DNA of 64,000 nucleotides from Ferrovibrio sp. MS7 (GTDB taxonomy: Bacteria > Pseudomonadota > Alphaproteobacteria > Ferrovibrionales > Ferrovibrionaceae): NCBI RefSeq assembly GCF_038404985.1, contig NZ_JBBKBA010000001.1:2012001-2076000 (forward strand), written 5' to 3'. Numbering within the stretch: position 1 is the stretch's first letter; every line of letters starts with the position of its first letter. Below are positions 28,234 to 49,496 of the stretch, piece after piece. The notes beneath the pieces are model-generated. The model was not told where the DNA came from. It searched no databases and saw only the letters and a list, made by a program, of their open reading frames with translations. Made by a program: the position numbers and the translations under genes.

Positions 28234-28392
28234 TGGCCCTGGCTGTAGCGGTTGGGGCCTTGGCAGTAGCCGCTGGCCGCGGCTTTGTCCATGGCCGGCT
28301 GCAGGGGCAGGGGACAAATCCCGGCCTGAAAATCTGCCGCTGGGCGAGGATTGCGAAACAGGGGCGCTTCGCTAATATCCGCCCGCTCTGAT

Positions 28393-28479
28393 GCCCCAGT
28401 GGTGGAATCGGTAGACGCGACGGACTCAAAATCCGTTGTCCGCAAGGACGTGCCCGTTCAAGTCGGGCCTGGGGCACCA
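28393..28479 (+). tRNA. tRNA-Leu (CAA)
   Basis: The 7-bp acceptor GCCCCAG pairs with CTGGGGC (28469-28475), followed by A and an encoded CCA. The anticodon arm is ACGGA-CTCAAAA-TCCGT, giving anticodon CAA (reads UUG). A long class II variable arm (TGTCCGCAAGGACG) and a TTCAAGT T-loop are present. Confidence 0.97.
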
Positions 28480-28509
28480 CCACATCTTCCACACAATCAC
28501 ATAACCCTT

Positions 28510-28536
28510 CGCGGTTTTCCGCCTTGGAAAGCCGCG
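28510..28536 (+). terminator. Hairpin after tRNA-Leu
   Basis: CGCGGTTTTCC pairs with GGAAAGCCGCG (one G-T) around a 5-nt loop. Only a short TTTT follows after 8 bases, so termination is likely but not certain. Confidence 0.5.
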
Positions 28537-28570
28537 CGCGGATCGTTTTGAAATAAATGCCAGATTCCGC

Positions 28571-28599
28571 TTGCAGATAAACATACTACCTAGTAGGTT
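28571..28599 (+). promoter_or_regulatory. Promoter with overlapping palindrome for the catabolic operon
   Basis: TTGCAG (28571-28576), a 17-nt spacer and TAGGTT (28594-28599) form a promoter 19 bp before the operon's first gene, which has AGGAGG 7 nt before its ATG. The odd palindrome ACCTA-G-TAGGT (28588-28598), with a longer overlap CTACCTAGTAG, covers the -10 box. This is where a repressor such as the TetR encoded in second place would act. Confidence 0.5.
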
Positions 28600-28617
28600 T
28601 TTCTCAGGAGGAAACAA

Positions 28618-29853
28618 ATGTCAGAAGCACAAGGCTATTCCCGCTGGAATGGCGAGCCGTCTTATGCGGCCGCTGCCACCCCTATTATCTGGGAGCCCCA
28701 GCTAGACGCCGATTCAGCCAAGTGGCGCGCCAAGGCCCGCCAGCTCTCGCTCGATCACTTTTCCGACCTCGCCCCGGTGATCGACCGCGAGCAGCGTTTC
28801 CCATACGAGAACGTGGCCCTGCTGCGCCAGGCCGGCATCAGCACCATGTTTCTGCCCAAGACTTATGGCGGCGCCGGTGCCTCGCTCACCTCGCTCAGCG
28901 CCGTGATCGAGGAAATCGCCGCCCATTGCGCTTCCACCAGCGGCATCATCGCCACCTTGCAGCTTGGCGCGCACCCGCTGCTGCTTGGCGCCAGCGACGC
29001 CCAGCGCCAGGAACATCTCACCGCCCTGGTGCGTGACGATATCTATATTTCCTTTGCCTTGAGCGAGCCCGGCGCCGGTTCCGACCCGGCCAACATGGCC
29101 ACCACCGCCACGCGCGAGGGCAGCGGCTGGCGCCTGCGCGGCACCAAATGCTGGATCGGCAATGGCGGTATCGCCCAGAAATACCTGCTGTTCGCCCAGA
29201 CCCGACCGGGCAGCGGCCGCGCCGGCATCGCCGCCTATATGGTGCGGGCCGATGCAGCGGGCGTGAAGGTGCATCCCAAGGAAGACAAGATGGGCATGCG
29301 CGGCACCGCCACCACGGTGATCGATTTCGATACCCTGGTGGATGATGCGGCCGTGATCGCCGCGCCCGGCGCCGCTTTGCGCCTGGCATTGGAAACCCTG
29401 AATGTTGGCCGCATCACTGTGGCGGCGCAGTCGGTCGGCATCGGCCTCGGCGCCTATCGCGAGATGACCGCCTATGCGGTGTCGCGCCAGACTTTCGGCC
29501 AGTCGATCCTCAGCCATCAGGGCCTCGGCTTCCAGATTGCCGATACGGCGATGCAGCTCTCGGCGGCGCGCATGATGGTCTACGAGGCGGCGCGGCAATT
29601 CGATGCCGGCCAGGATATCGCCAATCTCGGCGCCATGACCAAGCTGTTCGCCACCGAAGTGGCGCATCAGGCGGTCGATCTCGGCGTGCAGGTATTCGGC
29701 GGCCGCGGCTATGTGCGCCCGACACCGGTTGAGCGTTTCTACCGCGACCAGCGCGCCACCGAAATCTATGAAGGCACCTCGGAAATCCAGCGCCTGGTGC
29801 TGATGCGCGCGATCCAATCGGCTGCCGCTGCCGCCTTGGGAGACGATAAATGA
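28618..29853 (+). CDS. Acyl-CoA dehydrogenase
   Basis: A 411-residue FAD enzyme that would introduce a double bond next to the carbonyl of an acyl-CoA. FALSEPGAGSDPANM (flavin and substrate region) is near residue 145, GMRGTATTVIDF near 230, and the C-terminal GGRGYVRPTPVERFYRDQRATEIYEGTSEIQ carries the Glu base in the IYEGT segment (quoted parts are shortened). The gene is first in the operon and overlaps the TetR gene start by 4 bp. The substrate is unknown but the CoA ligase two genes on would supply one. Confidence 0.9.
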   Translation: MSEAQGYSRWNGEPSYAAAATPIIWEPQLDADSAKWRAKARQLSLDHFSDLAPVIDREQRFPYENVALLRQAGISTMFLPKTYGGAGASLTSLSAVIEEIAAHCASTSGIIATLQLGAHPLLLGASDAQRQEHLTALVRDDIYISFALSEPGAGSDPANMATTATREGSGWRLRGTKCWIGNGGIAQKYLLFAQTRPGSGRAGIAAYMVRADAAGVKVHPKEDKMGMRGTATTVIDFDTLVDDAAVIAAPGAALRLALETLNVGRITVAAQSVGIGLGAYREMTAYAVSRQTFGQSILSHQGLGFQIADTAMQLSAARMMVYEAARQFDAGQDIANLGAMTKLFATEVAHQAVDLGVQVFGGRGYVRPTPVERFYRDQRATEIYEGTSEIQRLVLMRAIQSAAAAALGDDK

Positions 29854-30497
29854 CCGTTGCCGCCATCCGCTCCGGCACCAACGCCGAAGAACAGAATCGC
29901 GCCGAAATCCTCAAGGCCGCGGCTATCGCCTTCATGCGCAAGGGCTACTCGGCGGCGAGCATCGACGACGTGGCGGACCTGATGAACGCCACCAAGGGGC
30001 GTGTCTATCACTATTACCGCAGCAAGGCGGATCTGTTCTTCGATGTGCATTTCGAGGCGATGCGGCTGGATCTCGACGTGGTGCGCCCGTTGGCGGCGAG
30101 CGGCGGCGATCCCTTGCAGCGCCTGCATGCCATGGCGGTGGCGCATATCCTGATCATCATGACGCAGCTTCCCTTCCAGCGCGTGGCGGTGCAGGGCCTG
30201 GAGATGCATCTGGCCGGCCAGACCACGCCGGAGCAGCGCTCGCTGCTCGCCCGCATCCTGGAGCTGCGCGATGAATATCAGGCATTGTTTGCCGGTCCGA
30301 TCGAGGAGGCGCTGCAGGCCGGCCTGATTCCGCCGCAGGATACCCGCACGGTGGTCAAGGCCTTCTTCGGTGCGCTGAACTGGACCACGATCTGGTATCG
30401 CCCCGGCCCGGAAGAAACACCGGAACGCCAGCAGGCAATGGCGGAAGAGATTGCCACCTTTGCCATCCGTGGATTGGGCAGCAAGAGCCATGGCTGA
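29850..30497 (+). CDS. TetR family regulator of the catabolic operon
   Basis: A 215-residue regulator with the helix-turn-helix ASIDDVADLMNATKGRVYHYY near residues 36-56. The C-terminal part resembles the TetR_C domain of fatty-acid/aromatic responders. The gene is inside the operon, overlapping both neighbours (ATGA with the acyl-CoA dehydrogenase; 8 bp with the CoA ligase), so it is likely autoregulated through the palindrome at 28588-28598. Its ligand would be a pathway compound, possibly a CoA thioester. Confidence 0.88.
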   Translation: MTVAAIRSGTNAEEQNRAEILKAAAIAFMRKGYSAASIDDVADLMNATKGRVYHYYRSKADLFFDVHFEAMRLDLDVVRPLAASGGDPLQRLHAMAVAHILIIMTQLPFQRVAVQGLEMHLAGQTTPEQRSLLARILELRDEYQALFAGPIEEALQAGLIPPQDTRTVVKAFFGALNWTTIWYRPGPEETPERQQAMAEEIATFAIRGLGSKSHG

Positions 30498-31824
30498 AGC
30501 GCGTCCGTTTTCCGACAAGTTCTGGGATGAGCGCGAAACCTGGTCGCGCGACCGCCTGGAATCCGAACAGCTTGCAGCGCTGAAGCGCCAACTCGCCTAT
30601 GTTGGCGCCAACAGCATCTACTACAAGCGCGCCTTCAAGGAAGTCGGCTTCGATCCCGCCGGCCTCAAGAGTTTCGCGGATCTGTCGCGCCTGCCGCTGA
30701 CCAAGAAGGCTGATTATGTCGCCTCCGTGCAGCGTCAGCCGCCCTGGGGCGAATTCGTCGCCGCGCCGCGCGAGCAGGTGCGCCGCGTGCATTTCTCGTC
30801 CGGCACTACCGCCAAGCCGGCGCCGCAATTCTGGACCGAGGCGGATCTCACCCGCTGGGCCGATAATTACGCGCGCGGCGCCTGGTCGCAGGGCGTGCGG
30901 CCGGGCCAGGTCTTCCAGTGCCTGTTCACTTACACTTGGTTCGTCGGCGGCCTTGGTGCCACGGCGGGTTATCAGCGCGCCGGCGCCATCTGCATTCCCG
31001 CCGGCAGCGGCGAGACCGAGCGCCAGGTGCATTCGATCTATGAATTCGGCACCGAGATCATCTGCGGCACGCCGTCCTTCATGCTGCATCTGGCCGAAAC
31101 GGCGGCCAAGCTTGGCTATGACAGTGCGGCTTCGCCGGTGAAACGCATCATGGTTGGCGGCGAGCCGGGCGCCAGCATTCCGGCGACGCGCAAGCGCATC
31201 GAGGAATTGTGGGGCGCGAAATGCTACGACGCCTATGGCTCGCTGGAATTCCAGACCATCGGCTGGGATTGCGAGGCACAGACCGGCCCGCATCTGCTGG
31301 AAGACTTCGCCTATGCCGAGATCGTCGATCCCGAGACCGGCAAGGCGGTGAATGATGGCCAGCGCGGCGTGCTGGTGCTGACGCATCTGGACAAGCAAGC
31401 CGGCCCGCTGGTGCGCTGGTGGACTGGCGACATCGTGTCGCGCCGGCGTGAGACCTGCGCCTGCGGCCGCACCCATGCCCGCCTGATCAATGGCGTGCTG
31501 GGCCGTGGCGACGACATGCTGGTGATCCGGGGCGTCAATCTTTTCCCCTCGGCGGTGGAAGAACTGATCCGCTCCACCAGCGGCACCACCGATGAATACC
31601 GCATCATTGTCGGCGGCAAGCTGACCGATGCCGGCGGCTTCCCCACCGGCATCCGTTTGCAGGTCGAGGCGCTTTCCGACGCCCCGGCGGATCTCGGTCA
31701 GCGCCTGAGCGTTCTGATCAAGGAGAGGCTGCAGGTACGGGCGGAAGTGGAATTGCTGGCGCCCGATACGCTGGCGCGTTCCAGCCACAAGTCGAAGCGC
31801 GTGATCCAGGAGCCGGCAGGATGA
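30490..31824 (+). CDS. Phenylacetate-CoA ligase-like adenylating enzyme
   Basis: A 444-residue AMP-forming ligase of the PaaK group. The phosphate loop is HFSSGTTAKPAPQFW near residue 100, the adenine region YGSLEFQTIGWDCEAQ near 250, WWTGDIV near 320 and a C-terminal ACT-like lid with GRGDDMLVIRGVNLFPSAVE. It would activate a carboxylic acid to its CoA ester. ATG at 30490 overlaps the TetR gene. The acid is not known. A short N-terminal part distinguishes it from the longer acyl-CoA synthetases. Confidence 0.85.
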   Translation: MAEARPFSDKFWDERETWSRDRLESEQLAALKRQLAYVGANSIYYKRAFKEVGFDPAGLKSFADLSRLPLTKKADYVASVQRQPPWGEFVAAPREQVRRVHFSSGTTAKPAPQFWTEADLTRWADNYARGAWSQGVRPGQVFQCLFTYTWFVGGLGATAGYQRAGAICIPAGSGETERQVHSIYEFGTEIICGTPSFMLHLAETAAKLGYDSAASPVKRIMVGGEPGASIPATRKRIEELWGAKCYDAYGSLEFQTIGWDCEAQTGPHLLEDFAYAEIVDPETGKAVNDGQRGVLVLTHLDKQAGPLVRWWTGDIVSRRRETCACGRTHARLINGVLGRGDDMLVIRGVNLFPSAVEELIRSTSGTTDEYRIIVGGKLTDAGGFPTGIRLQVEALSDAPADLGQRLSVLIKERLQVRAEVELLAPDTLARSSHKSKRVIQEPAG

Positions 31825-32609
31825 GCGATGCCGTGCTGAAAGACGGCTGCCTGAAAGCCGAGACCGTGGTGGTCACCGGCGCCGGTTCCGGGCTTGGCCG
31901 CGCCATCGCGCTGCGGCTGCTCGGCCTTGGTGCCCGCGTCATCGGCATCGGCCGTCGCGCGGAGCGGCTCGAGGAAACCGGCGCGTTGGCTGGCAACCAT
32001 AGCGGTCGCTATGCTGTGCAGGCATTGGATGTCCGCGATGAAGCGGCGATCACCGAAGCCGCCAAGGCCATTGGCGAAAAGCATGACGTGACCGCGCTGG
32101 TGAACAATGCCGGTGGCCAGTTCGTGGCGCCGGCCACCGAGATTTCGCGGCGCGGCTGGAACTCGGTGATCGATCTCAATCTCACCGCTGTGTTCCGGCT
32201 TTGCCAGCTTTTCCAGCCGGCCCTGGCGAAAAGCGGCGGCGCCATCGTCAATATTTCGCTGAGCCCGATCGAGCGCGGCGCCATCGGCATGGCGCATGGC
32301 GTGGCGGCGCGCGCCGGCGTGCTGGGCCTGACCAAGTCGCTGGCGCTGGAATGGGCCGAGCAAGGCATCCGGGTCAATTGCATCGGGCCGGGTTCTGTCG
32401 CCACCGCCGGCCTGGATGATGAAGTGAGTGCCGAGACGCGGCCGCGTCTGGTCGCCGGCATCCCGCTCGGGCGTCTCACGCGGCCGGAGGAAGTGGCGGA
32501 ATTCGTTGGTTACCTGATCAGTCCGGCAGGCCGCATGATTTCCGGGCAGATGCTGCAGATAGATGGCTTGGCGCATTTGGGTGCGCCGGTCGATCTGCTG
32601 CCAAGATGA
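31821..32609 (+). CDS. SDR family oxidoreductase, 2,4-dienoyl-CoA reductase-like
   Basis: A 262-residue short-chain dehydrogenase. TGAGSGLGRAIA (residues 19-30) binds the cofactor and NNAGGQFV follows near 96. The usual Tyr of YxxxK is not seen; instead GMAHGVAARAGVLGLTKSLALEW is present, the pattern seen in 2,4-dienoyl-CoA and trans-2-enoyl-CoA reductases. It could reduce an enoyl-CoA made by the acyl-CoA dehydrogenase or other unsaturated intermediate. The gene overlaps the ligase by 4 bp. Confidence 0.82.
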   Translation: MSDAVLKDGCLKAETVVVTGAGSGLGRAIALRLLGLGARVIGIGRRAERLEETGALAGNHSGRYAVQALDVRDEAAITEAAKAIGEKHDVTALVNNAGGQFVAPATEISRRGWNSVIDLNLTAVFRLCQLFQPALAKSGGAIVNISLSPIERGAIGMAHGVAARAGVLGLTKSLALEWAEQGIRVNCIGPGSVATAGLDDEVSAETRPRLVAGIPLGRLTRPEEVAEFVGYLISPAGRMISGQMLQIDGLAHLGAPVDLLPR

Positions 32610-32649
32610 ACAGCAAAAACTAGAGTATAACCAAGCGGAGGAAACAAAG

Positions 32650-33711
32650 ATGAAGACCAAGATCAAAATGGTGGCCGGCCTCGCCGGCGCGGTGCTGGCA
32701 TTCGCCGGCAGCCAGGCCATGGCGGCCGAGAAGGTGATCATTGCCATCGGCACCAGCGTGTTCGATGCCTCGCAGGCCAACAACACCTCCTATCCGATTT
32801 TCAGCAAGTGCTGGGAAAAGGAAGGGCTGAATGTCGAATTGCAACCGACCAGCTCCACCGCCGCGATGCAGGCCGTGCTTTCCGGCCAGGCGCAGATGGT
32901 GAATATGGGCCCCGCCGCCGGTGTCATCGCGCGCGGCAAGGGTGCGCCGCTCACCGCCGTCTATGTCAACATGCGCAAGAACTTCCAGTTCCCAGTGGTG
33001 CTGGAAAGCAGCCCGATCAAGACCATTGCCGATTTCAAGGGCAAGACCATGGGCGTTTTCTCCTATGGCGCGCAGATGGTGAAGGTGTTCCGTGGCATGG
33101 CCTCGGAAGCCGGCCTCAACCCGGACAAGGATCTCAACATCGTCGAGACCGGCGTCGGTGCTCAGGCCATCACCGCGCTGCAGACCGGCCGTGTCGATAT
33201 CTGGGGCACCTGGGATTCGCAGATCGCCACCGCCGAGAATGCCGGCCTGAAGCTGCGCCGCTTCACCACGCCGGCAGCCGAGAAGCTGACCTGGGGCGGT
33301 TCCTACTTCGTCCGTGACGATTATGTGAAGAGCAACCCACAGGCGATTGAGAAGACGCTGCGCTGCATCGCGCAAGGCTCGGTTGCCGCCATCGCCAATC
33401 CGCAGGGCGCGGTGAAGGCGCATTGGCAGGTCTATCCGGCCACCAAGCCGAGCGGCATCGAGGAATCGAAGGCCTTCGAACAGGCGCTGCATCTGCTCAA
33501 CACCCGCATCGAGTTCCTGAAGCTCAATCCGGGCGAGCGCTGGGGCGAATTCCCGCATGAGATGGTTGCCGAGACCGTCAAGTTTATGCGCGAGACCGGC
33601 GAGCTGCAGAACGACATCGACCCGCGGACGCTCTACACGAACCAGTTCGTGGAAGGCATCAACCGTTTCGACGCCAAGGCGGTCGAGGCGGCAGCCAAGG
33701 CGATCAAGTAA
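32650..33711 (+). CDS. ABC transporter substrate-binding protein (NitT/TauT type)
   Basis: A 353-residue periplasmic binding protein. Residues 1-26 form a signal peptide ending in QAMAA. The two-lobed fold of the nitrate/sulfonate/taurine binding family is indicated by SSTAAMQAVLSGQAQMVNMG near residue 75, LESSPIKTIADFKGKTMGVF near 120 and VDIWGTWDSQIATAENAG near 190. Its ATPase and permease follow after three metabolic genes. GGAGG lies 8 nt before the ATG. The ligand is probably a small anionic organic compound, sulfonate- or carboxylate-like. Confidence 0.87.
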   Translation: MKTKIKMVAGLAGAVLAFAGSQAMAAEKVIIAIGTSVFDASQANNTSYPIFSKCWEKEGLNVELQPTSSTAAMQAVLSGQAQMVNMGPAAGVIARGKGAPLTAVYVNMRKNFQFPVVLESSPIKTIADFKGKTMGVFSYGAQMVKVFRGMASEAGLNPDKDLNIVETGVGAQAITALQTGRVDIWGTWDSQIATAENAGLKLRRFTTPAAEKLTWGGSYFVRDDYVKSNPQAIEKTLRCIAQGSVAAIANPQGAVKAHWQVYPATKPSGIEESKAFEQALHLLNTRIEFLKLNPGERWGEFPHEMVAETVKFMRETGELQNDIDPRTLYTNQFVEGINRFDAKAVEAAAKAIK

Positions 33712-33712
33712 G

Positions 33713-34603
33713 ATGGGCAGCGCCACTGCATCCGGTTCGGCCGGCAGCCGCTTGAAGCGACTGCTGGAAGCCCGCTCGATGGCCCTGATCCCCGGCTGCC
33801 ATGACGCCCTCGGCGCCAGGCTGATCGAGGATGCCGGTTTCGAGGCGGTCTACATGTCCGGCTTTTCGGTGGCGGCCAGCTTTGGCCGCCCCGATCTCGG
33901 CATCCTGACCATGACCGATGTGGTGGCGCGTTCCATCCAGATTGCCGAAGCCGTGTCGGTGCCGCTGCTGGTGGATGCCGATACCGGCTATGGCGGGCCG
34001 CTGAATATCGCCGAGACCGTGCGCCGCCTGGAGCAGGGCGGCGTCGCTGGGCTGCATCTGGAAGACCAGAAGACGCCGAAGAAATGCGGCGCGCTCGCCG
34101 GCAAGGAACTGGTGCCGGTGGAAGAAATGTGTGCCCGCATCATCATCGCCAAGCGGGCGCGGCGCGGCGAAGATTTCGTCATCGTCGGGCGCACCGATGC
34201 CGTCACCGTGGCCGGCCTGGATGAAACCATCCGGCGCTGCAAGGCGATGGCCGAGGCCGGCGCCGATGCCATCATGGTGCCGTCGCTGGAAACGCCGGAG
34301 CAGCTTCGCGCCGTTGCCACCTGCGTGTCCAAGCCGGTGCTGTATGTCGCCGCCGAAACCGTGCGGACGATGTATGACGCCAAGCAGCTTGGCGAATTCG
34401 GCTTCGCGGCTTCGCTCTATCCGCTGTCGCTGATCATGGCCAGCGTGGCGGCGCAGCGTACCGTGCTGCGCGACCTGCGCAGCACCGGCAACACGGCACA
34501 GCATATTCCGAACATGACGCCCTTCCGCGAAGTCGGCGCCCTGGTGGGCACGCCGGCGGCGGGCGAAGAAGAAGCCGCCCTGGTGGCGGGGACGGGTACC
34601 TGA
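33713..34603 (+). CDS. Isocitrate lyase/PEP mutase superfamily C-C lyase
   Basis: A 296-residue TIM-barrel enzyme. DADTGYGG (residues 88-95) is the metal site and KKCG (123-126) carries the catalytic Cys of lyases such as methylisocitrate and 2,3-dimethylmalate lyase, absent from the oxaloacetate decarboxylase group. It would split a substituted malate or isocitrate into pyruvate or glyoxylate plus an acid. The next two genes encode a LeuCD-like hydro-lyase that could make its substrate. The start follows the preceding stop by one base; it is coupled. Confidence 0.82.
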   Translation: MGSATASGSAGSRLKRLLEARSMALIPGCHDALGARLIEDAGFEAVYMSGFSVAASFGRPDLGILTMTDVVARSIQIAEAVSVPLLVDADTGYGGPLNIAETVRRLEQGGVAGLHLEDQKTPKKCGALAGKELVPVEEMCARIIIAKRARRGEDFVIVGRTDAVTVAGLDETIRRCKAMAEAGADAIMVPSLETPEQLRAVATCVSKPVLYVAAETVRTMYDAKQLGEFGFAASLYPLSLIMASVAAQRTVLRDLRSTGNTAQHIPNMTPFREVGALVGTPAAGEEEAALVAGTGT

Positions 34604-35877
34604 TGGCTGGTGCAACGGCGGCACAGAAAATCCTGGCCCGCGCTGCAGGGCGCGATCAGGTGGCAGTGGGCGAGGTGATCTGGGCCGAGCCGGATCTAGT
34701 CACCACGCCGGAAGTGTCGTTTCCGGCCTATGTGAAGCGGCTGGACAGTATCGGCGTGCGCAAGTTCCGTTACCCGGAACGCGTTGTTGTTGCCATCGAC
34801 CATGAAGTGCCGGTGCATAGCCGCGATGGTGCCGAGCGCAACCGGCTGACCCGCCGGCTGGCGGAGGAATTCAAGGTCGGCCATTTCTACGATGGCGATG
34901 GCATCACCCATCCGCTGGTGGTGGAGCAGGGTCTGGTGCGACCGGGCATGTTTTGCGCCGGCGCTGATTCCCATGCCCCGGGTCTTGGCGGCGTTGGCGC
35001 GCTGTCCATGCCGTTCGGTTTCGAGCTGACCATGATCCTGGCATTGGGCCGCATCTGGCTGCCGGTGCCGGCCAGTGTGCGCGTGGTGCTGGAAGGCCGC
35101 TTGAGCCCCGGCCTCGCGGCGCGTGATATCATTCTGCAGGTATTCCGCCAGCTTGGCGCCGAGCGCGCCCATGACAAGGTGATCGAATTCACCGGGCCCG
35201 GCATCGCTTCCCTGAGCGTGCGCGAACGCATGACGCTCTGCGGTCTCTGCGTCGATCTCGGCGGCGTCACCGGCCTGGCGCCGGCCGACGCGGTGGCGCT
35301 GCAGTATCTGTGCGATATCGGCATGGCGGACGCAGAAGCCGTGACATCCGATGCCGATGCCGTCTTCGCCGATGAAATCCGCATCGATCTGGCGAGGCTG
35401 GAACCGCAGGTTTCGGTTCCGCCGTCGCCGCTGGATGTGCAGACCGTGGCCGAACTCGGTCCGGTGCCGATCCAGCACGCCTATATCGGTTCCTGCGTTT
35501 CCGGCAGCCTTGCCGAATTGCGCAGCGTGGCGGATTTCCTGAAATCCCGCAAAGTGCATAACGGCGTGCAGATGCTGGTGATTCCGGCCACCCGCAGCGT
35601 CTATCGCCAGGCAATGGCGGAAGGGCTGCTCGATACCATCCTGGCGGCCGGCGCACAGGTGGCGCCACCCACCTGCGGCCCGTGTTTCGGCGGCTTGGCG
35701 CAACTGGCGCCGGGCGAGGTGCGCATTTCCACCAGCACGCGCAACGATCCTGGCCGCATGGGCAGCAAGGAAGCATCGATCTACCTGGGCAGCGCGCTCA
35801 CGGTGGCGGCGTCGGCGGTGGCCGGCCATATCGCCGATCCGCGCGCTGTTTTCGGGCAGGAGGGAGGTCGGCGATGA
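34603..35877 (+). CDS. Aconitase-family hydro-lyase, large subunit (LeuC-like)
   Basis: A 424-residue [4Fe-4S] enzyme related to 3-isopropylmalate dehydratase large subunit. The cluster cysteines are Cys298 and C358-GP-C361; GADSHAPGLGGVGAL near 120 is the substrate motif. It would hydrate or dehydrate a substituted maleate/malate with the small subunit next door. Dimethylmaleate hydratase DmdA is a near functional model from the family. The ordinary leucine genes leuA/leuB are absent. It overlaps the lyase gene by 1 bp. Confidence 0.85.
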   Translation: MAGATAAQKILARAAGRDQVAVGEVIWAEPDLVTTPEVSFPAYVKRLDSIGVRKFRYPERVVVAIDHEVPVHSRDGAERNRLTRRLAEEFKVGHFYDGDGITHPLVVEQGLVRPGMFCAGADSHAPGLGGVGALSMPFGFELTMILALGRIWLPVPASVRVVLEGRLSPGLAARDIILQVFRQLGAERAHDKVIEFTGPGIASLSVRERMTLCGLCVDLGGVTGLAPADAVALQYLCDIGMADAEAVTSDADAVFADEIRIDLARLEPQVSVPPSPLDVQTVAELGPVPIQHAYIGSCVSGSLAELRSVADFLKSRKVHNGVQMLVIPATRSVYRQAMAEGLLDTILAAGAQVAPPTCGPCFGGLAQLAPGEVRISTSTRNDPGRMGSKEASIYLGSALTVAASAVAGHIADPRAVFGQEGGRR

Positions 35878-36383
35878 GCATCATCCACAGCGGGCGCTGC
35901 TGGAAACTGCCCGATGAAGTGTCGAGCGATCAGTTGATCGGCTCGCATCTGGCCTTTGAATTCGATCCACAGATCCTGCGCCAGCATCTGCTGGAAGAGT
36001 TGCGGCCCGAACTGGTGCGCGAGGCGCAGCCGGGCGATTGCATCGTTGCGGGGCGTAATTTCGCCCATGGCAGCGTGCATAGCCATCCCTTCCTGGCGAT
36101 GCAGGCGATGGGTCTGGGGTTGATTGCCCGCTCCATGCCGCGCGGTGGTTTCCGCCTCGCGGTGTTCATGGGCATCCCCATGCTCACCGCCGACGATACG
36201 CTCTATGACGGCGTCAACGATGGCGACAGCCTGGAAATCGATTACAGCCTGGGCAAGCTGCGCAATGCGACCACGGGTCTCGAATTCACGGTCGCGCCGC
36301 TAGCCCCGTTCCTGCAGGACATCGTCGCTTCCGGCGGCGGCCTCAACTATGTGCAGCGTTTGGTGAAAGAGCAGCCGGCATGA
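35874..36383 (+). CDS. Aconitase-family hydro-lyase, small subunit (LeuD-like)
   Basis: A 169-residue swivelling-domain partner of the large subunit. AGRNFAHGSVHSHPF near residue 60 corresponds to the GxNFGCGSSREH motif of LeuD, with the Cys and Arg changed: the second residue pair reads AHGSVHSH. This points away from leucine synthesis and toward another substrate. AGGAGGGAGGT is a strong ribosome site inside the large-subunit gene and the start overlaps its stop by 4 bp. Expected partner of the 34603 gene. Confidence 0.82.
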   Translation: MSIIHSGRCWKLPDEVSSDQLIGSHLAFEFDPQILRQHLLEELRPELVREAQPGDCIVAGRNFAHGSVHSHPFLAMQAMGLGLIARSMPRGGFRLAVFMGIPMLTADDTLYDGVNDGDSLEIDYSLGKLRNATTGLEFTVAPLAPFLQDIVASGGGLNYVQRLVKEQPA

Positions 36384-37144
36384 TCAGTATCCGCGATGTA
36401 ACCAAGGTCTACGCGACCCATTCCGGCGAGCGCATCGGCGCGCTGGGGCCGATCTCCCTCGATATCCGCGAAGGCGAGCTGATCTGCATTGTCGGGCCCT
36501 CGGGCTGCGGCAAGTCGACCTTGCTGAAGCTGCTGGCCGGACTGATGAACCGCTCCGGCGGCGACATCACTTTCCGGGGACGGCCGATGAACGGGCCGCA
36601 GAAGGATATCGGCGTGGTGTTCCAGAGCCCGGTTTTGCTGCCGTGGAAAACCGTGCTGCAGAATGTGCTGCTGCCGGCGGAAGTGCTGGGGCTGGACATG
36701 AAGGCGGCGACCAAGCGCGGCCATGACCTGCTCGCCATGGTCGATCTTGAAGGCTTCGCCGGCAAGTATCCGAACGAGCTTTCCGGCGGTATGCAGCAGC
36801 GCGTCGCCATTGCTCGCGCCCTGCTGCACGATCCGGCCCTGTTGCTGATGGACGAGCCGTTCGGCGCGCTGGACGCCATGACGCGCGAGACGATGAATCT
36901 GGAATTGCTGCGCATCTGGCGGGAATCGCGCAAGACCATCCTGTTCGTCACCCACTCGATCCCGGAAGCCGTGTTCCTCGGCGGCCGCGTGGTGGTGATG
37001 ACCCAGCGCCCCGGCACCATCGCCGACCTGGTTGAAACCAATCTGCCCGAGGATCGCGACCTCGACATCATGACCACCGAACGTTTCGGTACCCATACCA
37101 AGCGTATCCGGCAGCAATTCAACGCGCGCGGAGGCATCGAATGA
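36380..37144 (+). CDS. ABC transporter ATPase (TauB/SsuB type)
   Basis: A 254-residue cytosolic ATPase. Walker A GPSGCGKSTLL is near residue 41, Q-loop VVFQSP near 85, signature LSGGMQQRVAIARALL near 140, Walker B LLLMDEPFGALD near 158. It powers the importer with the permease that follows (4-bp overlap) and the binding protein at 32650. The type belongs to the nitrate/sulfonate/taurine family. Confidence 0.92.
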   Translation: MISIRDVTKVYATHSGERIGALGPISLDIREGELICIVGPSGCGKSTLLKLLAGLMNRSGGDITFRGRPMNGPQKDIGVVFQSPVLLPWKTVLQNVLLPAEVLGLDMKAATKRGHDLLAMVDLEGFAGKYPNELSGGMQQRVAIARALLHDPALLLMDEPFGALDAMTRETMNLELLRIWRESRKTILFVTHSIPEAVFLGGRVVVMTQRPGTIADLVETNLPEDRDLDIMTTERFGTHTKRIRQQFNARGGIE

Positions 37145-37935
37145 GCGACATGACCGAACAGCCGCAGAAGCGGCCCGAGCGTTATCTGGTGCCGGGCGTT
37201 TTCGTCCTGGTGGTGGGGAGCTGGGAACTGGGTATCCGCTGGGGCAACGTGGCGGAATATATCGTCCCGGCGCCCTCGGCGATTGTGAAGGCGCTGTATA
37301 ACGGCCTCAAGGACGGCACCTATATCAGCAACAGCCTCACCACCCTGGGCGAGGCGATGGCCGGCTTCCTCATCGCCACCTGCCTTGGCCTGATCATCGG
37401 CACGCTGATCGCGCAGTCGCGCACGGTGGAAAAGACGCTGTATCCCTACCTGATCACCATCCAGACCACGCCAAAGGTGGCCATCGCGCCGCTTTTCATC
37501 ATCTGGTTCGGTTTCGGCATCGCGTCCAAGATCATCATTGCCGCCACGGTGGCGTTCTTCCCGATCCTGGTGAACGTGATCGCCGGTCTGCGCTCCACCG
37601 ACCAGCAGCGTATCGACCTGCTGCGCTCGCTGCATGCCACGCCCTGGCAGATTTTCCGCATGGTGCGGCTGCCCAGCGCGGCGCCGATGATCTTCGCCGG
37701 CCTCAATGTGGCGGTGATCTTCGCCATCCTCGGCGCCATTGTCGGCGAATTCGTCGGTTCCAAGCATGGCCTGGGCAACCTGATAGTACAGAAGAACTTC
37801 AATCTCGATACCGCTGGCGTCTTTGCCGCCCTGGCCTGCCTTTCGGCCATGGGTGTCAGCCTGCATCTGATCATGCATTGGCTGCAGCGCCGCCTGCTGT
37901 TCTGGGCCGACAGTACGCAGACACCAAACGTTTAA
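37141..37935 (+). CDS. ABC transporter permease (TauC/SsuC type)
   Basis: A 264-residue inner-membrane permease with about six helices. The ATPase-coupling EAA-type loop is around LRSLHATPWQIFRMVRLPSA near residue 175. Start overlaps the ATPase stop by 4 bp. Together with 32650 and 36380 it completes an importer for an anionic compound. Confidence 0.9.
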   Translation: MSDMTEQPQKRPERYLVPGVFVLVVGSWELGIRWGNVAEYIVPAPSAIVKALYNGLKDGTYISNSLTTLGEAMAGFLIATCLGLIIGTLIAQSRTVEKTLYPYLITIQTTPKVAIAPLFIIWFGFGIASKIIIAATVAFFPILVNVIAGLRSTDQQRIDLLRSLHATPWQIFRMVRLPSAAPMIFAGLNVAVIFAILGAIVGEFVGSKHGLGNLIVQKNFNLDTAGVFAALACLSAMGVSLHLIMHWLQRRLLFWADSTQTPNV

Positions 37936-37964
37936 TGGCACCGAACGTCTAAGAGGGCGAAACC

Positions 37965-38744
37965 ATGCAGACCGCCGCCGTTAGCGAAGCACCGTATCAG
38001 GTTTTCTGGGCGCCGGGCTGCACAAGTTGCCTGCGCACCAAGGAATACCTGAAGCGCCAGGGTATTCCTTTTGAGTCGATCAATGTGCGCACCGATCCGC
38101 AGGGCATGGCCAAGCTGCAGGCCATCGGCGCCAGCAGCGTGCCGATCGTGGCGCGCGGCGAGCGCTTCATCTATGCCCAGTCGCTGGAAGACCTGAAGGC
38201 TTTTCTCGGCCTAGATGCCGAAGCCGAGCAGAAGCTGGCGCCGGCCGAACTGATCCGCCGCGCCGATATCGTGCTGGCCGCCGCCGCGCGCTACATGCGG
38301 CAGATGTCGACGGAACAGCTCGATGGCCCGTTCCGCAATAGCTGGGCGCCGCCGCGCGGCATCGGGCACCATGTTTTCCGCATTGCCGAAGCCTTTCTCG
38401 AAGCAGTCGAGACGCCCTGCGAGCTGACCTATGAAATGACCATGCGCGGCACTTACGAGGTGAAGCCGGGCGACGACGTGATCAGCTATGGCGAGGGTAT
38501 CCGTGCCCGCCTGAACGCCTGGTGGCAGGCCAATGCCGGTCGAGACTTCAGCGTCATGGTGCCGACCTATTACGGCGAGCAGACTTTGCATGAAGTGCTG
38601 GAGCGCACCACCTGGCATTCGGCGCAGCACACGCGGCAGCTGATCGTGATGGTGGAGAGTTTCGGCCTGGCACCGGACCAGCCGCTGACCCCGGCGGACC
38701 TGGCCGGATTGCCGCTGCCGGAGAAAGCCTGGGACACGGACTAG
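37965..38744 (+). CDS. Glutaredoxin-DinB fusion protein
   Basis: A 259-residue two-domain protein. Residues about 10-85 are a glutaredoxin with active site C19-TS-C22 and TVPIVA-like SVPIVARGE. Residues about 92-245 form a DinB/YfiT four-helix domain: the metal triad is probably His135 or 136 with His218 and His222 (WHSAQH). DinB relatives include thiol-dependent maleylpyruvate isomerases, so a thiol-dependent step or isomerisation is a plausible role. The combination in one chain is unusual. It lies between the permease and the dioxygenases in the operon. Confidence 0.8.
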   Translation: MQTAAVSEAPYQVFWAPGCTSCLRTKEYLKRQGIPFESINVRTDPQGMAKLQAIGASSVPIVARGERFIYAQSLEDLKAFLGLDAEAEQKLAPAELIRRADIVLAAAARYMRQMSTEQLDGPFRNSWAPPRGIGHHVFRIAEAFLEAVETPCELTYEMTMRGTYEVKPGDDVISYGEGIRARLNAWWQANAGRDFSVMVPTYYGEQTLHEVLERTTWHSAQHTRQLIVMVESFGLAPDQPLTPADLAGLPLPEKAWDTD

Positions 38745-38774
38745 AGCACAGAGTTACGAACTAGGGCGGGAACC

Positions 38775-39632
38775 ATGGATATAAAACCGATTGCGGCGGG
38801 CCTGGGCGCCGAAGTCACTGGTATCGATCTGGCGCAGCCGCTGGATGCGGCCACAGTCAAGGCATTGCGGCAGGCCTGGCTAAAATATCTGGTGCTGCTG
38901 TTCCGTGGCCAGACCCTGACGCCGCAGCAGTTGATCGATTTCAGTGCCGGGTTTGCCCCGCTCGAGACGCATGAGAGCTATCAGCCCGAACTGCGCCATC
39001 CCGATCACCCGGAATTGCTGGTGGTGAAGGCCAGCGAAGTTGGTGGCCGCCGCATCGTGTTCGGCCAGCAATGGCATTCCGATCTTTCTTACACCACGCG
39101 CCCCTCCCTCGGCTCCTGCCTCTATTGCCGCAAGCTGCCGAGCGTCGGCGGCGATACGCTGTTCGCCAATATGTACATGGCCTATGACGAGCTTTCGCCA
39201 GCGATGCAGCGGATGCTGGAACGCCTGGAAGTGGTGCATGACCTCTGCAATGGCCGCTCTTTACGCAATGCCAGTCATGAAGCGCGCGAGGGCGCCCGGC
39301 GGCGTAATCCGCCGGTGGCGCAGCCGGCGGTGCGGGTGCACTCGGAAACCGGCCGCAAGGCGCTTTATATCAGCGAATGGATGTGCCCGCGCTTTGTTGG
39401 CATGAGCGAGGAAGAAAGCGCCGGCCTGCTGCGCTTCCTGTTCGATCATTCCGTGCAGGAGCCTTTCACCATGCGCCAGCGCTGGCGGGTGGATGATGTG
39501 CTGATGTGGGACAACCGCGCCACGATACACATGGCACTGGCGGATTATGCCATCGGCGAGCCGCGCGAATTGCTGCGCACGTCGATGATGGGTGAGGATT
39601 GCGGCCGGCTTCTGCAGGAAGCGGCTGAATAG
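38775..39632 (+). CDS. TauD/TfdA-family 2-oxoglutarate dioxygenase, copy 1
   Basis: A 285-residue iron enzyme. The facial triad is H101-S-D103 (QQWHSDLS) and His252 (IHMALADY), with Arg268 for 2-oxoglutarate. Members use 2-oxoglutarate and O2 to release sulfite from taurine or to open aryl-ether, sulfate or carnitine-type substrates. It lies in the operon beside a taurine-like importer. It shares many motifs with the next gene, so both arise from a duplication. Confidence 0.9.
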   Translation: MDIKPIAAGLGAEVTGIDLAQPLDAATVKALRQAWLKYLVLLFRGQTLTPQQLIDFSAGFAPLETHESYQPELRHPDHPELLVVKASEVGGRRIVFGQQWHSDLSYTTRPSLGSCLYCRKLPSVGGDTLFANMYMAYDELSPAMQRMLERLEVVHDLCNGRSLRNASHEAREGARRRNPPVAQPAVRVHSETGRKALYISEWMCPRFVGMSEEESAGLLRFLFDHSVQEPFTMRQRWRVDDVLMWDNRATIHMALADYAIGEPRELLRTSMMGEDCGRLLQEAAE

Positions 39633-39657
39633 AGTAGGCAGGGTAAGGGAGAGGAAC

Positions 39658-40509
39658 ATGGCAATCGAAATCAAGCGGCTGGCAGCCGGCATCGGCGCGG
39701 AAATTTCCGGCGTTGACCTCACCCGTCCGGTGAGCAACGCCGACATGGAAGCGATCAAGCAGGCCTGGCGCGACCATCTGATCCTGCTGTTCCGTGGCCA
39801 GCAATTGACCCATGAGCAGCATATCGAGTTCAGCCGCCGCTTTGGCGACCTGGATGATCACGATGCGATCCCGAAATTCCGCGACCCGCAGTATCACGAG
39901 ATCCTGCCGGTGACGAACCAGGAGATCGATGGCCGTAAGCAGCCGGTGGGCCGCCAGTGGCATTCCGATCTTTCCACCACCTTGCGCCCGGCACGTGCCT
40001 CGCTGCTGCGTTGCGAGGTGATCCCGCCGGTGGGCGGCGACACCATGTTCGCCAACATGTATCTCGCCTATGAAACGCTTTCGGAGAAGATGAAGGAGAT
40101 CATCGATGATCTCTGGGGCATTCATGACATGACGGTGGCCAAGGCCTCCCAGGGCCGCGACCTTTCGGAAGTGCGCAAGCGCAATCCGCCAGTGGCGCAG
40201 CCGGTGGTGCGGGTGCATCCGGAAACCGGCCGCAAGGCGATCTATGTCAGCGAAATGACCACCACCGGCATTGTCGGCATGAGCGACGAAGAGGCGCGGC
40301 CGATCCTGGAATACCTGTTCCGCCATTCGGTGCGGCCGGAATTCACCTACCGCCATCGCTGGCAGGTGCATGACATGATCGCCTGGGACAATCGCTGCGC
40401 CATGCATCTGGCGCTGGACGATTACGATATCAACGTGCCGCGCAAGCTCTACCGCACCACTCTGTTGGGTGAGCCCTCGGGGTATATCGTGCAGAGCAAC
40501 GCCGCCTGA
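39658..40509 (+). CDS. TauD/TfdA-family 2-oxoglutarate dioxygenase, copy 2
   Basis: A 283-residue paralogue of the preceding enzyme. Triad H102-S-D104 (RQWHSDLS) and His250, with Arg266, is intact. Blocks ITRLAA-like IKRLAAGIGAEISGVDL, LLFRGQQLT, VGGDTMFANMYLAYE and NPPVAQPVVRVH are almost the same as in copy 1, but the mid-region 60-95 and the end differ. So the two may act on successive substrates. Start ATG at 39658 has GGAG upstream. It overlaps the next start by 1 bp. Confidence 0.9.
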   Translation: MAIEIKRLAAGIGAEISGVDLTRPVSNADMEAIKQAWRDHLILLFRGQQLTHEQHIEFSRRFGDLDDHDAIPKFRDPQYHEILPVTNQEIDGRKQPVGRQWHSDLSTTLRPARASLLRCEVIPPVGGDTMFANMYLAYETLSEKMKEIIDDLWGIHDMTVAKASQGRDLSEVRKRNPPVAQPVVRVHPETGRKAIYVSEMTTTGIVGMSDEEARPILEYLFRHSVRPEFTYRHRWQVHDMIAWDNRCAMHLALDDYDINVPRKLYRTTLLGEPSGYIVQSNAA

Positions 40510-41864
40510 TGTCGCTGACGCGCCGGTTCGTCGCGCAATCGCTGGCGATCTCGGCGCGTCATGACCCGGCGCTGCCGGACAAACTGAAGCTTTGCCTCGC
40601 CGATCATATCGGCTGCGTGCTAGCCGGTGCTGCCATGCCTTGGGCAAAGCAGACGCTCACGGCTCTGGCCAGATGGCCAGTCAGCAATGGCAGCCCGGTG
40701 CTGGGGCAGGGGCTTGCCCTGGCGCCGGCGGAAGCAGCTTTCGCCAATGCGGTGCTGGCGTCGTCTTCCTCGCGCACTGACACGCATCCGCCAACCAATT
40801 CGCATCCCGGCGCCGTGCTGTTCCCGGTGCTACTGGCGCTGGCGGCACAGCGCCGGGCCAGCGGCGCCGATCTACTGGATGCGGCTTTTGCCGGCTATCA
40901 GGCGATGGGGCGGCTTGGCCGCGTCATGGTCGATGATGCTTTCCGCAAGCGTTTCCGCACCACGCCGGTGATCGGCACCGTGGGCGGCGCCATTGCCGCC
41001 GCGCATCTGCTGAAATTGGATACCGAGCGTGCCATTCATGCCGTGGCGCTGGCGGCCAATGCCGCCGGCGGCCTGATGCAATGGGCCCATAGCGGCGGGC
41101 TGGACCTGATCTACCATGCTGGCCAGGCAGCGCGCGCCGTGGTGCATGGCGCCCTGCTGGCGGAAGCCGGCTGCACGGCTTCCGAAGCCATCCTCGAAGG
41201 CGAGGGCGGCCTGCTGATGGCCTTCGGCGGCCGCGAGCGGGCAGAAGCATTGCTTGCCCACCAGGAACCGGCCTGGGAATTGGAGGTTATCGAGTTCAAG
41301 CCGGTGCCGGCCTGTGTTTTCGTGCAAGCGGCGGCCTATGCGGCGCTGAAGCTGGTCACGGCACATGCCCTTGAGCCTGCGCGTATCCGGGCCGTGGCCG
41401 TCACCAGCTTCCACACCGCCTTGCGCTTTCCCGGCTGCGACAATCCGGGGCCGCTGGCCGATATCCAGGCGGCGCGCATGAGCCTGAAGCATAGTGTCGC
41501 CGCCGTGCTGGCGCGTGGCGAACTGACTGACGCCAATTACCTGGCGCTGGATGATGCGGCGATCCAGCGGCTGTGCCGTGTGATGACGCTGCATGAGGAT
41601 GCGGCGATGACGGCGGCCTTTCCCGCTCGCCAGTCGGCGCATGTGGCGGTCACGCTGGATGATGGTCGGTCCCTCGAAGCGGCTGTTGATGATATTCCGG
41701 TATTTGGTCCGGCGCAGGTGATGGCGCGGTTTCGCGCAGTGGCCTCGGCTGCATTGGGCGGGCAGCGGGCGAAGCTTCTCGAAGCCGCGTGTATTGCTGT
41801 CGAGGCCTGCGACGACATGCGGGATTTCCTTACCTCTTTGACTCAGGAAAGGCGGGCGGCATGA
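40509..41864 (+). CDS. MmgE/PrpD family protein
   Basis: A 451-residue member of the 2-methylcitrate dehydratase/cis-aconitate decarboxylase family. SSSRTDTHPPTNSHPGAVLFP near residue 90 and GTVGGAIAAAHLL near 155 are landmarks; the all-helical domain extends to about 270 with the lid domain after. Such enzymes dehydrate or decarboxylate substituted tricarboxylates or branched dicarboxylates. Overlaps its neighbours. In this operon it may prepare a substrate for the LeuCD-like or lyase step. Confidence 0.85.
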   Translation: MSLTRRFVAQSLAISARHDPALPDKLKLCLADHIGCVLAGAAMPWAKQTLTALARWPVSNGSPVLGQGLALAPAEAAFANAVLASSSSRTDTHPPTNSHPGAVLFPVLLALAAQRRASGADLLDAAFAGYQAMGRLGRVMVDDAFRKRFRTTPVIGTVGGAIAAAHLLKLDTERAIHAVALAANAAGGLMQWAHSGGLDLIYHAGQAARAVVHGALLAEAGCTASEAILEGEGGLLMAFGGRERAEALLAHQEPAWELEVIEFKPVPACVFVQAAAYAALKLVTAHALEPARIRAVAVTSFHTALRFPGCDNPGPLADIQAARMSLKHSVAAVLARGELTDANYLALDDAAIQRLCRVMTLHEDAAMTAAFPARQSAHVAVTLDDGRSLEAAVDDIPVFGPAQVMARFRAVASAALGGQRAKLLEAACIAVEACDDMRDFLTSLTQERRAA

Positions 41865-42652
41865 GGCTGCATCTGCGCGACAAGCTGCGGCCTGATGCGC
41901 CGCTCACCGGCATGGCCTGCTTTTCCGCCAGCCCGGTGCTGATCGAGATCATGGCGGCCGGTGGTCTCGATTTTGTCACCATCGACATGGAGCATTGCCC
42001 GACAGGGCTCGAAACCGTGGCGCATCTGCTGCGCGCCGCCGATGCCGGTGGCCTGTCGCCCTTGGTGCGCGTACCGGATCTCGATCCGGGCCTGATCGGC
42101 CGCGTGCTCGATCTTGGTGCCGATGGCATTGTGCTGCCGATGGCGACAGCTGAGCGCACGCGGGCCGCCGTGCAGGCCGCGCGCTATGCACCGGAAGGCA
42201 TGCGCGGCGCCTGTCCCGCTGTGCGCGCCGCCGGCTATCTGCCGCGCGACTGGGCTGCCTATCAGCGCGAGCAGAACCAGCGGGCGCTCGTCGTGCCGCT
42301 GATCGAGGATCGTGCCGGGCTGGAACAGGCCGAGGAAATCTGCGCCGTCGATGGCGCCGATGTATTGTTTCTCGGCCCCTTCGACCTCGCTGCCTCTCTG
42401 GGGCTGGATGGCACCGATTTCCGCCACCCCGTGCTGCGCGCGGCCTTGGACCGGCTGCTGGCCGCCGCCCGGCGCCATGGCAAGCATGTGCTGACCACTA
42501 TGGGCAGTTCCGTCGATGCCGATTACGCCCGGCAATTGCTCGGCCTCGGTGTGGCGATGCTGAGCTTCAGCGCCGATGTGGTGGTGTTCGCCGCTGCCTG
42601 CCGGCGCATCGGCGACCTGGCCGGCAGCCTGCGGCCAGTGCCGCCTGCTTGA
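41861..42652 (+). CDS. HpcH/HpaI-family aldolase
   Basis: A 263-residue class II pyruvate aldolase fold. MEHCPTGLE near residue 44, PLVRVPDLDPGLIGRVLDLGADGIVLPMA at 66-95 (parts), and LFLGPFDLAASLGL near 170 match the 4-hydroxy-2-oxo-acid aldolase group. It would cleave a hydroxy-oxo acid to pyruvate and an aldehyde, or make malyl/citramalyl-type products. It is the last gene of the run, ending 15 bp before a methyltransferase gene of unrelated function. The start overlaps the PrpD stop. Confidence 0.87.
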   Translation: MRLHLRDKLRPDAPLTGMACFSASPVLIEIMAAGGLDFVTIDMEHCPTGLETVAHLLRAADAGGLSPLVRVPDLDPGLIGRVLDLGADGIVLPMATAERTRAAVQAARYAPEGMRGACPAVRAAGYLPRDWAAYQREQNQRALVVPLIEDRAGLEQAEEICAVDGADVLFLGPFDLAASLGLDGTDFRHPVLRAALDRLLAAARRHGKHVLTTMGSSVDADYARQLLGLGVAMLSFSADVVVFAAACRRIGDLAGSLRPVPPA

Positions 42653-42667
42653 TAGATAAGGGGGGGC

Positions 42668-43594
42668 TTGATAGACAGGGCGGACCGATCCCGGAGACCG
42701 CCCTTGCCGCTGCCCGACCCCATTCCCACCACGCTGATTGCCGATGGCTGGCAGGATTACCGCCTGCTGGATAGCGGCCATGGCCGCCGGCTGGAGCAGC
42801 TTGGCCGTGTCCGCGTCATCCGCCCGGAGCCGCAGGCGATGTGGTCGCCGAAGCTGCCGGAGGCAGAATGGGATCGCGCCGATGCCAGTTTCGGGCCGAA
42901 CGAGAAAAGCGAGGAGGATGCCGGCAACTGGCGTTTCCGCCGCGAATTGCCGGAAACCTGGCCGGTCAGCTACCGCGACCTGCGCTTCTATGGCCGCTTC
43001 ACGCCGTTCCGCCATCTCGGCTTCTTCCCGGAGCAGATGACGCAATGGGATTGGGTGGCCGATTGCGTCACCAAAGCTGGCAATGCGCCGCGCGTACTCA
43101 ATCTCTTCGGCTATACCGGCGTGATCTCGCTGATCGCGGCGCGTGCCGGGGCGAAAGTCACCCATGTCGATGCCTCGAAGAAGGCGATCACTTACGCCCG
43201 CGAGAATCAGGAGCTAGCCGGCCTGGGCCAGGCGCCGATCCGCTGGATCCTGGATGACGCACGCAAGTTCATCGCCCGAGAGGCACGGCGCGGCAGCCAT
43301 TACGAAGGCATTATCTTGGACCCGCCGAAATTCGGCCGTGGCCCCAAGGGCGAAATCTGGAAAGTGTTCGAGCATCTGCCGCTGCTGCTGAGCGAATGCC
43401 GCGCGGTGCTTTCGGATAAGCCGCTTTTCGTCATCCTCACGGCCTATGCCGCGCGGCTCTCGCCGTTTTCGCTGCATGCGCTGCTCGAGGAGCATATCGG
43501 CAAGGGCCGCATCGAATGCGGCGAGATCGCGCTGCGCGAGGAATCCGGCAACCGGCTGGTTTCCACCGCGCTGCATGCGCGCTGGACGCCCTAA
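42668..43594 (+). CDS. Class I SAM-dependent methyltransferase (RlmK/RsmC-like)
   Basis: A 308-residue methyltransferase. LNLFGYTGVISLIAARAGAKVTHVDAS near residue 138 is the SAM site, LDPPKFGRGPKG near 220 the catalytic loop (DPPxxG type) of rRNA base methylases. The frame opens at a TTG at 42668 with AAGGGG before it; a second TTG at 42704, with GGAG 7 nt upstream, fits as well. No ATG is near. Its 3' end overlaps the convergent TrmH-type gene by 4 bp. Confidence 0.82.
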   Translation: MIDRADRSRRPPLPLPDPIPTTLIADGWQDYRLLDSGHGRRLEQLGRVRVIRPEPQAMWSPKLPEAEWDRADASFGPNEKSEEDAGNWRFRRELPETWPVSYRDLRFYGRFTPFRHLGFFPEQMTQWDWVADCVTKAGNAPRVLNLFGYTGVISLIAARAGAKVTHVDASKKAITYARENQELAGLGQAPIRWILDDARKFIAREARRGSHYEGIILDPPKFGRGPKGEIWKVFEHLPLLLSECRAVLSDKPLFVILTAYAARLSPFSLHALLEEHIGKGRIECGEIALREESGNRLVSTALHARWTP

Positions 43595-48174: not shown

Positions 48175-48220
48175 CGCGGCGGCTTGACGTGGGGGCGTTA
48201 AAGTTTTCCGATAGCGGGTA

Positions 48221-49453: not shown

Positions 49454-49496
49454 GTCCCGCCCCTGGGGCCCCGTCAGGGGTCAACCGAGTTCCCCT

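Follow-up and report, generated by a model that had tools for sequence, protein, structure and literature searches.

What compound would be broken down with an importer, two dioxygenases, an aconitase-type hydratase and an isocitrate-lyase-type enzyme encoded in one row, and how did such a row come together? The question is raised by a 14-kb block of fifteen genes that adjoins a tRNA gene in Ferrovibrio sp. MS7, an alphaproteobacterium with a 4.58-Mb genome. The block lies in the 64,000-nucleotide stretch analysed here (the window; positions 2,012,001 to 2,076,000 of contig NZ_JBBKBA010000001.1). We distinguish three parts. Part A comprises the genes for an acyl-CoA dehydrogenase (ACAD), a TetR regulator, a PaaK-type coenzyme A (CoA) ligase and a short-chain dehydrogenase/reductase (SDR). 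Part B encodes a binding protein, an isocitrate lyase (ICL)-type lyase, LeuC and LeuD subunits, an ATPase and a permease of the ATP-binding cassette (ABC) type, and the dioxygenase TauD2. Part C adds a glutaredoxin-DinB fusion (Grx-DinB), the dioxygenase TauD1, a PrpD-like protein and an HpaI-type aldolase.

The reading that we favour, to which we give about an even chance, is that of a horizontally acquired catabolic operon in which an older, TetR-controlled CoA/beta-oxidation set (A) has been extended by genes for import and cleavage (B) and by accessory ones (C). The operon is a new combination of known component families. No such gene set is described in the parts of the literature reached by our search (subscription journals were mostly outside its coverage), nor in the titles and beginnings of abstracts on dimethylmaleate hydratase and dimethylmalate lyase. 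It points to an undescribed breakdown route for some environmental acid, and to a complete catabolic operon standing as a single block beside a tRNA gene, apparently under the control of the regulator that belongs to the pathway it joined.

Probable insertion at a tRNA gene and the conserved core

The block directly follows a tRNA-Leu(caa) gene, on which, as on an insertion there, the earlier reading of the sequence alone was silent. The congener G006 has an empty site: window position 28479 aligns to its position 11229 and 42733 to 11122, with 106 bases in between. In a second congener (G010) only the right flank aligned, in a different order, which gives no empty site. Within the order (18 genomes), a LeuC of the operon's type is found in two, the window's and that of its species-mate; the rest, several of them incomplete, have relatives at 42% at most. 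Because of this distribution, together with the empty site, a gain of the block is likelier than its loss, and the fifteen genes were probably acquired horizontally. The operon shares the empty tRNA site, in this one relative, with tRNA-borne genomic islands. It differs from them in that family searches found no integrase among the fifteen genes and in that no repeat of the tRNA end exceeding 11 nt, as would be expected of an attachment (att) site, occurs anywhere in the window. The GC fraction of the block (0.644) is close to that of the rest (0.654).

Parts A and B recur together, in the window's gene order and at 49-68% identity, in two genomes of one genus from another family (G121 and G763). 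There an enoyl-CoA hydratase gene takes the place of the SDR and a single TauD is present. Among the 384 other genomes of the class LeuC has one match at 59% (G121), the next best being at 43-44%; G763 was found among 43 genomes of the order of G121. At E 1e-50 a search of 385 genomes of the class detects the binding protein in two, the window's and G121, and no LeuC above 43% other than the window's own occurs among 398 genomes drawn from the phylum. Scanning named genomes with 8-residue LeuC patterns, which detects close relatives only, yielded three: a metagenome-assembled genome (MAG) of the same species (Ferrovibrio sp. isolate Gw_Bodden_bin_214, L071) and two at 33-34%. Plasmid records searched with LeuC, Grx-DinB, the lyase, the binding protein, the ligase, TauD2 and PrpD contain no match at 60% identity or above, and none of the eight plasmid surroundings inspected among the matches listed holds the full operon.

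Part A is the older and wider TetR-controlled CoA/beta-oxidation set, to which B and C would have been joined. The ligase is found at E 1e-115 in seven of 347 genomes, including the window's and G121. Taking ACAD and PaaK genes that are adjacent, or have TetR between them, as the criterion, we found part A, whole or partial, without LeuC, lyase or binding protein in seven loci of 17-29 kb each: G074, G198, G175, G130, G232, Variovorax paradoxus VAI-C and Rhizobium sp. SSA_523. Both TetR and a close SDR (52-60%) occur in G074, G198, Variovorax and Rhizobium; G175 has the TetR with no close SDR detected, and G130 and G232 have SDRs at 28-33% and no detected TetR. The sequence-only reading had taken the fifteen genes as one unit and proposed to compare gene order between genomes. 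That comparison bears out the order of A+B in a second family, but with part A standing alone elsewhere and C out of line the operon is a composite, which in part is what the reading itself had named as evidence against it.

The palindrome ACATACTACCTAGTAGGTT, predicted from the sequence to be bound by the TetR protein, is identical in G121 and G763. It occurs as one copy without mismatch, upstream of the ACAD gene, in each of four genomes (the window's G000, the same-species MAG G005, G121 and G763), with no second site within 3 mismatches in any of them; a reversed control pattern gives 0, 0, 2 and 3 matches, respectively. By eye, part A is preceded by similar palindromes in G074 and in G198; those of G175 and Variovorax are weaker, and the examined stretches of G130, G232 and Rhizobium show none. 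The regulator probably arrived together with part A.

The neighbours of part A elsewhere give little guidance on the substrate. In G074, G198, G175 and Variovorax, OB-fold and thiolase genes lie divergently and class III CoA transferases are present as well (the Variovorax transferase scores 543 bits against the 750 needed for succinate-glutarate CoA transferase). Neighbours of cyclase-like, FMN oxidoreductase-like, molybdenum hydroxylase and amidase type point to no clear substrate. Divergent from the operon, G763 carries genes for MaoC, ACAD, an SDR, an HMG-CoA-synthase-like protein with an OB fold, thiolase, a further SDR (50% to the window's) and FadB; of the genes checked in G121, MaoC, ACAD and both SDRs were confirmed. 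At L156 13726-15279 the HMG-CoA-synthase-like protein is fused to the OB-fold domain, beside the thiolase gene and divergent from the operon. With what we take to be the bbs-type beta-oxidation gene set, some relatives of part A share the OB-fold protein, thiolase, two SDRs, ACAD and class III CoA transferases, but a PaaK ligase is present and the thiolases of Variovorax and G763 reach 128 and 139 bits of the 750-bit BbsB cut-off. The best solved match of the ligase is 2-hydroxyisobutyryl-CoA synthetase (6hdw, 246.8 bits); however, phenylacetate ligases are nearly equal (244.9 bits) and the block has no B12 mutase gene.

Paired changes in hydratase and lyase

LeuC searches gave 92 loci, of which we kept the 88 with a LeuC-type match above 200 bits and dropped 4. 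An ICL-superfamily gene lies within about 1.5 kb of LeuC in 51 of the 88: as a cassette, LeuCD with an isocitrate-lyase-type gene is common. The lyase is nearby in 2 of 17 loci whose LeuD reads SSREH, as in E. coli LeuD (two genes were counted twice), and in 49 of 71 with other or unread motifs. LeuD and lyase motifs pair as SSREQ-KRCGH (29 loci, with 5 more SSREQ loci having no lyase in reach), HPHYP-KRCPA (6, with 3 more lacking the lyase), SSRNG-KRCGF (3) and S(V/I)HSH-KKCGA, the window's subtype (4 of 4 loci). Minor pairs are SSREH-KKCGH (2), SSRPA-KRCGH (2), SSREG-KKCGH (1) and SAREV-KKCGH (1). The motif pattern misread or left unread six loci, and the sequences are related, so that the pairs are not independent events. 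The first four pairs may mark different substrates of the cassette.

In the four genomes sharing the altered lyase, SSRE of LeuD has become S(V/I)HS with the first Ser kept. The lyases of the window and of G763 retain D58, D85, D87, E115, C123 and R158 of E. coli PrpB, with H125 replaced by A, E188 by P and N210 by V or L. E. coli AceA aligns with the lyase likewise at the six positions compared, D58, C123 and R158 being kept there too. The LeuC-type large subunit keeps the three cluster cysteines and the RNxxGR loop (GSC, TCGPC, TRNDPGR). In M. tuberculosis ICL one succinate carboxylate is gripped by Asn313, Glu295, Arg228 and Gly192 according to a review (PMC9780415); the Glu is numbered 285 in PMC9026967, as an offset of four from E. 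coli AceA predicts. These residues were mapped to the lyase through E. coli AceA and the numbering rather than by direct alignment. Two further papers give the Cys of ICL-type lyases as the catalytic acid (PMC7609661) and the Ser of aconitase as the base (PMC8184944); this Ser is kept in the operon's LeuD.

Judged from these alignments, the carboxylate-site residues of LeuD and of the lyase are lost together in the operon subtype. Given this joint replacement, the natural substrate probably bears, at the position of the carbanion-adjacent carboxylate of isocitrate, some other group such as a ketone, amide, thioester or sulfonate; it is probably not a plain alkylmalate or citrate. Methylated dicarboxylates, among the substrates first suggested, become less likely for the same reason. 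Tentatively, and somewhat short of an even chance, we propose that the hydratase and the lyase of an undescribed pathway have switched jointly to a substrate that lacks the second carboxylate normally present, the widespread cassette having split into several co-diverged subtypes of which this is one.

The pairing of a two-subunit aconitase-family hydratase with an ICL-superfamily lyase is that of dimethylmaleate hydratase and 2,3-dimethylmalate lyase, which we take to act in nicotinate fermentation. The operon differs from that system in the replaced SSRE of LeuD and H, E and N of the lyase, in the added dioxygenases and importer, and in the lack of nicotinate genes in the block.

Other cassettes deserve mention in their own right. 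A second LeuC-LeuD-lyase cassette, of KRCGH type, lies in the same genome (L126 8010-17218; G000:C1 about 1.640-1.649 Mb), with similar ones in five congeners. Near KRCGH-type cassettes (51 proteins scanned at 12 loci) we counted five genes each for hydantoinase A and hydantoinase B and four for an isochorismatase-type amidase; such neighbours would fit a cyclic imide opened to maleate. On plasmid pSCAT of Streptantibioticus cattleyicolor (L180 8092-13405), LeuC, LeuD, a PrpD-like protein, an open reading frame (ORF) without Pfam match and a lyase follow in a row.

A possible route and its competitors

In the route that we envisage, the ABC importer would take up an anionic compound and TauD2 (perhaps also TauD1) would oxidise it with 2-oxoglutarate and O2. 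LeuCD would add or move water, and the ICL-type lyase would then cut the C-C bond beside the hydroxyl, releasing a small 2-oxoacid and a carbonyl fragment. Pyruvate, the product originally proposed, would be one option for the 2-oxoacid beside glyoxylate. From the resulting acid the PaaK-type ligase would make a CoA ester; ACAD would introduce a double bond and the SDR would oxidise the product, leading into general beta-oxidation. We infer the order of reactions, the substrate and the products, as we do the direction of transfer and the binding of TetR. There is good support for the general idea of a catabolic operon that combines an importer with a dioxygenase, a hydro-lyase, a C-C lyase and a CoA ligase, the order of A+B being kept in a second family.

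Both TauD proteins keep H99, D101, H255 and R266 (E. coli TauD numbers), which we take to be the Fe triad and the 2-oxoglutarate contact. The positions of H70 and R270, presumably anion-binding, are also kept in both, so that the anionic substrate of the sequence-only reading is plausible. N95 and F206 are changed in both and Y73 is kept in TauD1 only; we assume that these three hold the amine end of taurine. The NMT1/SsuA-type binding protein, ATPase and permease stand in one operon, as in a TauABC-type importer.

Several points weigh against our reading. Genes for thiolase, MaoC and enoyl-CoA hydratase are missing from the block, to which the search for them was confined, and the route leaves most of the part C genes without a role. 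The binding protein resembles sulfonate binders weakly (38 bits to SsuA). R158 of the lyase is retained and some carboxylate contact may persist, and that the Arg of SSRE in LeuD holds a substrate carboxylate is our assumption. Because the altered pair occurs in two lineages only, co-divergence by shared descent is inseparable from joint adaptation. Finally, whereas the palindrome at the promoter is confirmed and conserved, the single promoter that the earlier reading saw for all fifteen genes would depend on elements picked by eye; a sigma-70 consensus scan of 28300-43000 found no promoter.

Part C bears on a competing view, in which two or three separate pathways are run from one promoter and C is unrelated to A and B. 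In G121 and G763 the genes for Grx-DinB, TauD1, PrpD and HpaI do not stand in line with A+B; part C does so in the window's species only. Elsewhere in those genomes PrpD has no match at E 1e-10 (G121) or matches of 26-32% outside the operon (G763), and HpaI has matches of 33-35% only. In comparison with the same-species MAG, TauD1, PrpD and HpaI carry the three highest rates of nonsynonymous substitution (dN) of the operon, with PrpD ranking first and Grx-DinB not being among them. Grx-DinB occurs in 52 of 385 class genomes at E 0.001 (31, the window's included, below 1e-50), and 19 expanded loci hold LeuC in no case and a lyase in one. Nonetheless, tight spacing and overlaps continue across part C, and G006 lacks the block in its entirety. 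Moreover, on plasmids of Caballeronia Lep1P3 (L037) and Variovorax SRS16 (L038) Grx-DinB lies within about 12 kb of a lyase and LeuCD, or of a lyase, TauD and PrpD, in other arrangements, and a lyase adjoins Grx-DinB in G211 and G097. We consider separate pathways unlikely; PrpD and HpaI may handle a substrate variant met by this species only, or a by-product. As a marker for related operons, Grx-DinB led nowhere.

Degradation of an alkylcitrate or dialkylmaleate by a methylcitrate-like route, with PrpD dehydrating, LeuCD rehydrating and the lyase giving a 2-oxoacid plus succinate or a fatty acid for part A, strikes us as quite unlikely. Its enzymes are indeed those at hand (PrpD, an aconitase-type enzyme and a PrpB-type lyase, corresponding to PrpB, PrpD and AcnB/AcnD), and on pSCAT the genes for LeuC, LeuD, PrpD-like protein and lyase fall within 5.4 kb. 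However, the block lacks PrpC, PrpD stands outside the conserved core, with no match at E 1e-10 in G121 and poor ones in G763, and the carboxylate-site residues are gone from LeuD and from the leaving-acid side of the lyase. In an alignment with IRG1 the PrpD-like protein also lacks the His and Lys that we take to be catalytic there. The HpaI-type protein, compared by eye with 1dxe and 4mf4, keeps the His, Arg and metal-binding Glu and Asp presumed to serve HpaI/GarL aldolases.

Still less probable is the use of a sulfonate or sulfate ester, with TauABC-type import and TauD desulfonation as the central steps and the remainder processing the carbon skeleton. Like TauABCD/SsuABC systems the operon has a binding protein, ATPase, permease and TauD, the solved proteins that TauD2 matches best (199 bits) were deposited under the name taurine dioxygenase, and H70 and R270 are kept. 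Against this, the N95 and F206 positions are changed in both TauD proteins and Y73 in TauD2, RdpA scores close behind (188 bits), the 38-bit likeness to SsuA is weak, the genes are interleaved with those for LeuCD, lyase and CoA enzymes, and the operator belongs with part A rather than with a sulfur regulator. Aryloxyalkanoate ether cleavage by paired TfdA/RdpA-like dioxygenases is very improbable: the solved proteins that match TauD2 include RdpA and TfdA, but the block has no phenol hydroxylase or ring-cleavage gene and one TauD suffices in the G121 and G763 operons.

Gene calls and coordinates

All fifteen ORFs, described from the start as codirectional with small gaps or overlaps, are intact on the + strand with intergenic gaps of -8 to +40 bp (Table 1); start codons were chosen by ribosome-site context. 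Pfam and NCBIfam, with PDB sequences for eight proteins, uphold the original family calls, with two scores below cut-off: LeuD/DmdB (NCBIfam) at 105.6 bits against 108.95, with no Pfam match at 1e-3, and DinB_2 in Grx-DinB at 22.1 against 24.8. The genes are all present in the same-species MAG G005 at 95-100% protein identity. Against it, dN is below the synonymous rate (dS) in all fifteen, with no stops, and dN/dS is highest for the PrpD-like gene (0.0253 to 0.0888); the fifteen genes are under purifying selection.

Table 1. Features of the block and its left flank in window coordinates.
Feature	Position	Strand	Basis or remark
tRNA-Leu(caa), insertion point of the block	28393..28479	+	ARAGORN
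Block missing from congener G006	28480..42732		right end between the HpaI stop (42652) and 42732
Promoter picked by eye	28571..28599	+	-35 TTGCAG 28571-28576, 17 bp, -10 TAGGTT 28594-28599
Putative TetR operator ACATACTACCTAGTAGGTT	28581..28599	+	19-bp palindrome
ACAD, part A	28618..29853	+	family search, PDB match
TetR regulator, part A	29850..30497	+	family search
PaaK-type CoA ligase, part A	30490..31824	+	family search, PDB match
SDR oxidoreductase, part A	31821..32609	+	family search, relatives
Periplasmic binding protein, NMT1/SsuA type, part B	32650..33711	+	family search, PDB match
ICL/PEP-mutase-superfamily lyase, KKCGA variant, part B	33713..34603	+	family search, alignments
Aconitase-family large subunit, LeuC/HacA type, part B	34603..35877	+	family search, motif alignment
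LeuD/DmdB-type small subunit, SVHS replacing SSRE, part B	35874..36383	+	NCBIfam, alignment
ABC transporter ATPase, part B	36380..37144	+	family search
ABC transporter permease, part B	37141..37935	+	family search
Grx-DinB, part C	37965..38744	+	family search
TauD1 dioxygenase, part C	38775..39632	+	family search, alignment
TauD2 dioxygenase, part B	39658..40509	+	family search, PDB match, alignment; 56% to G121/G763 genes
MmgE/PrpD-family protein, part C	40509..41864	+	family search, PDB match
HpcH/HpaI-type aldolase, part C	41861..42652	+	family search, PDB match

Elsewhere in the window, at 48001-52000, the AT skew is strongly negative (-0.31 and -0.17) where long + strand ORFs occur.

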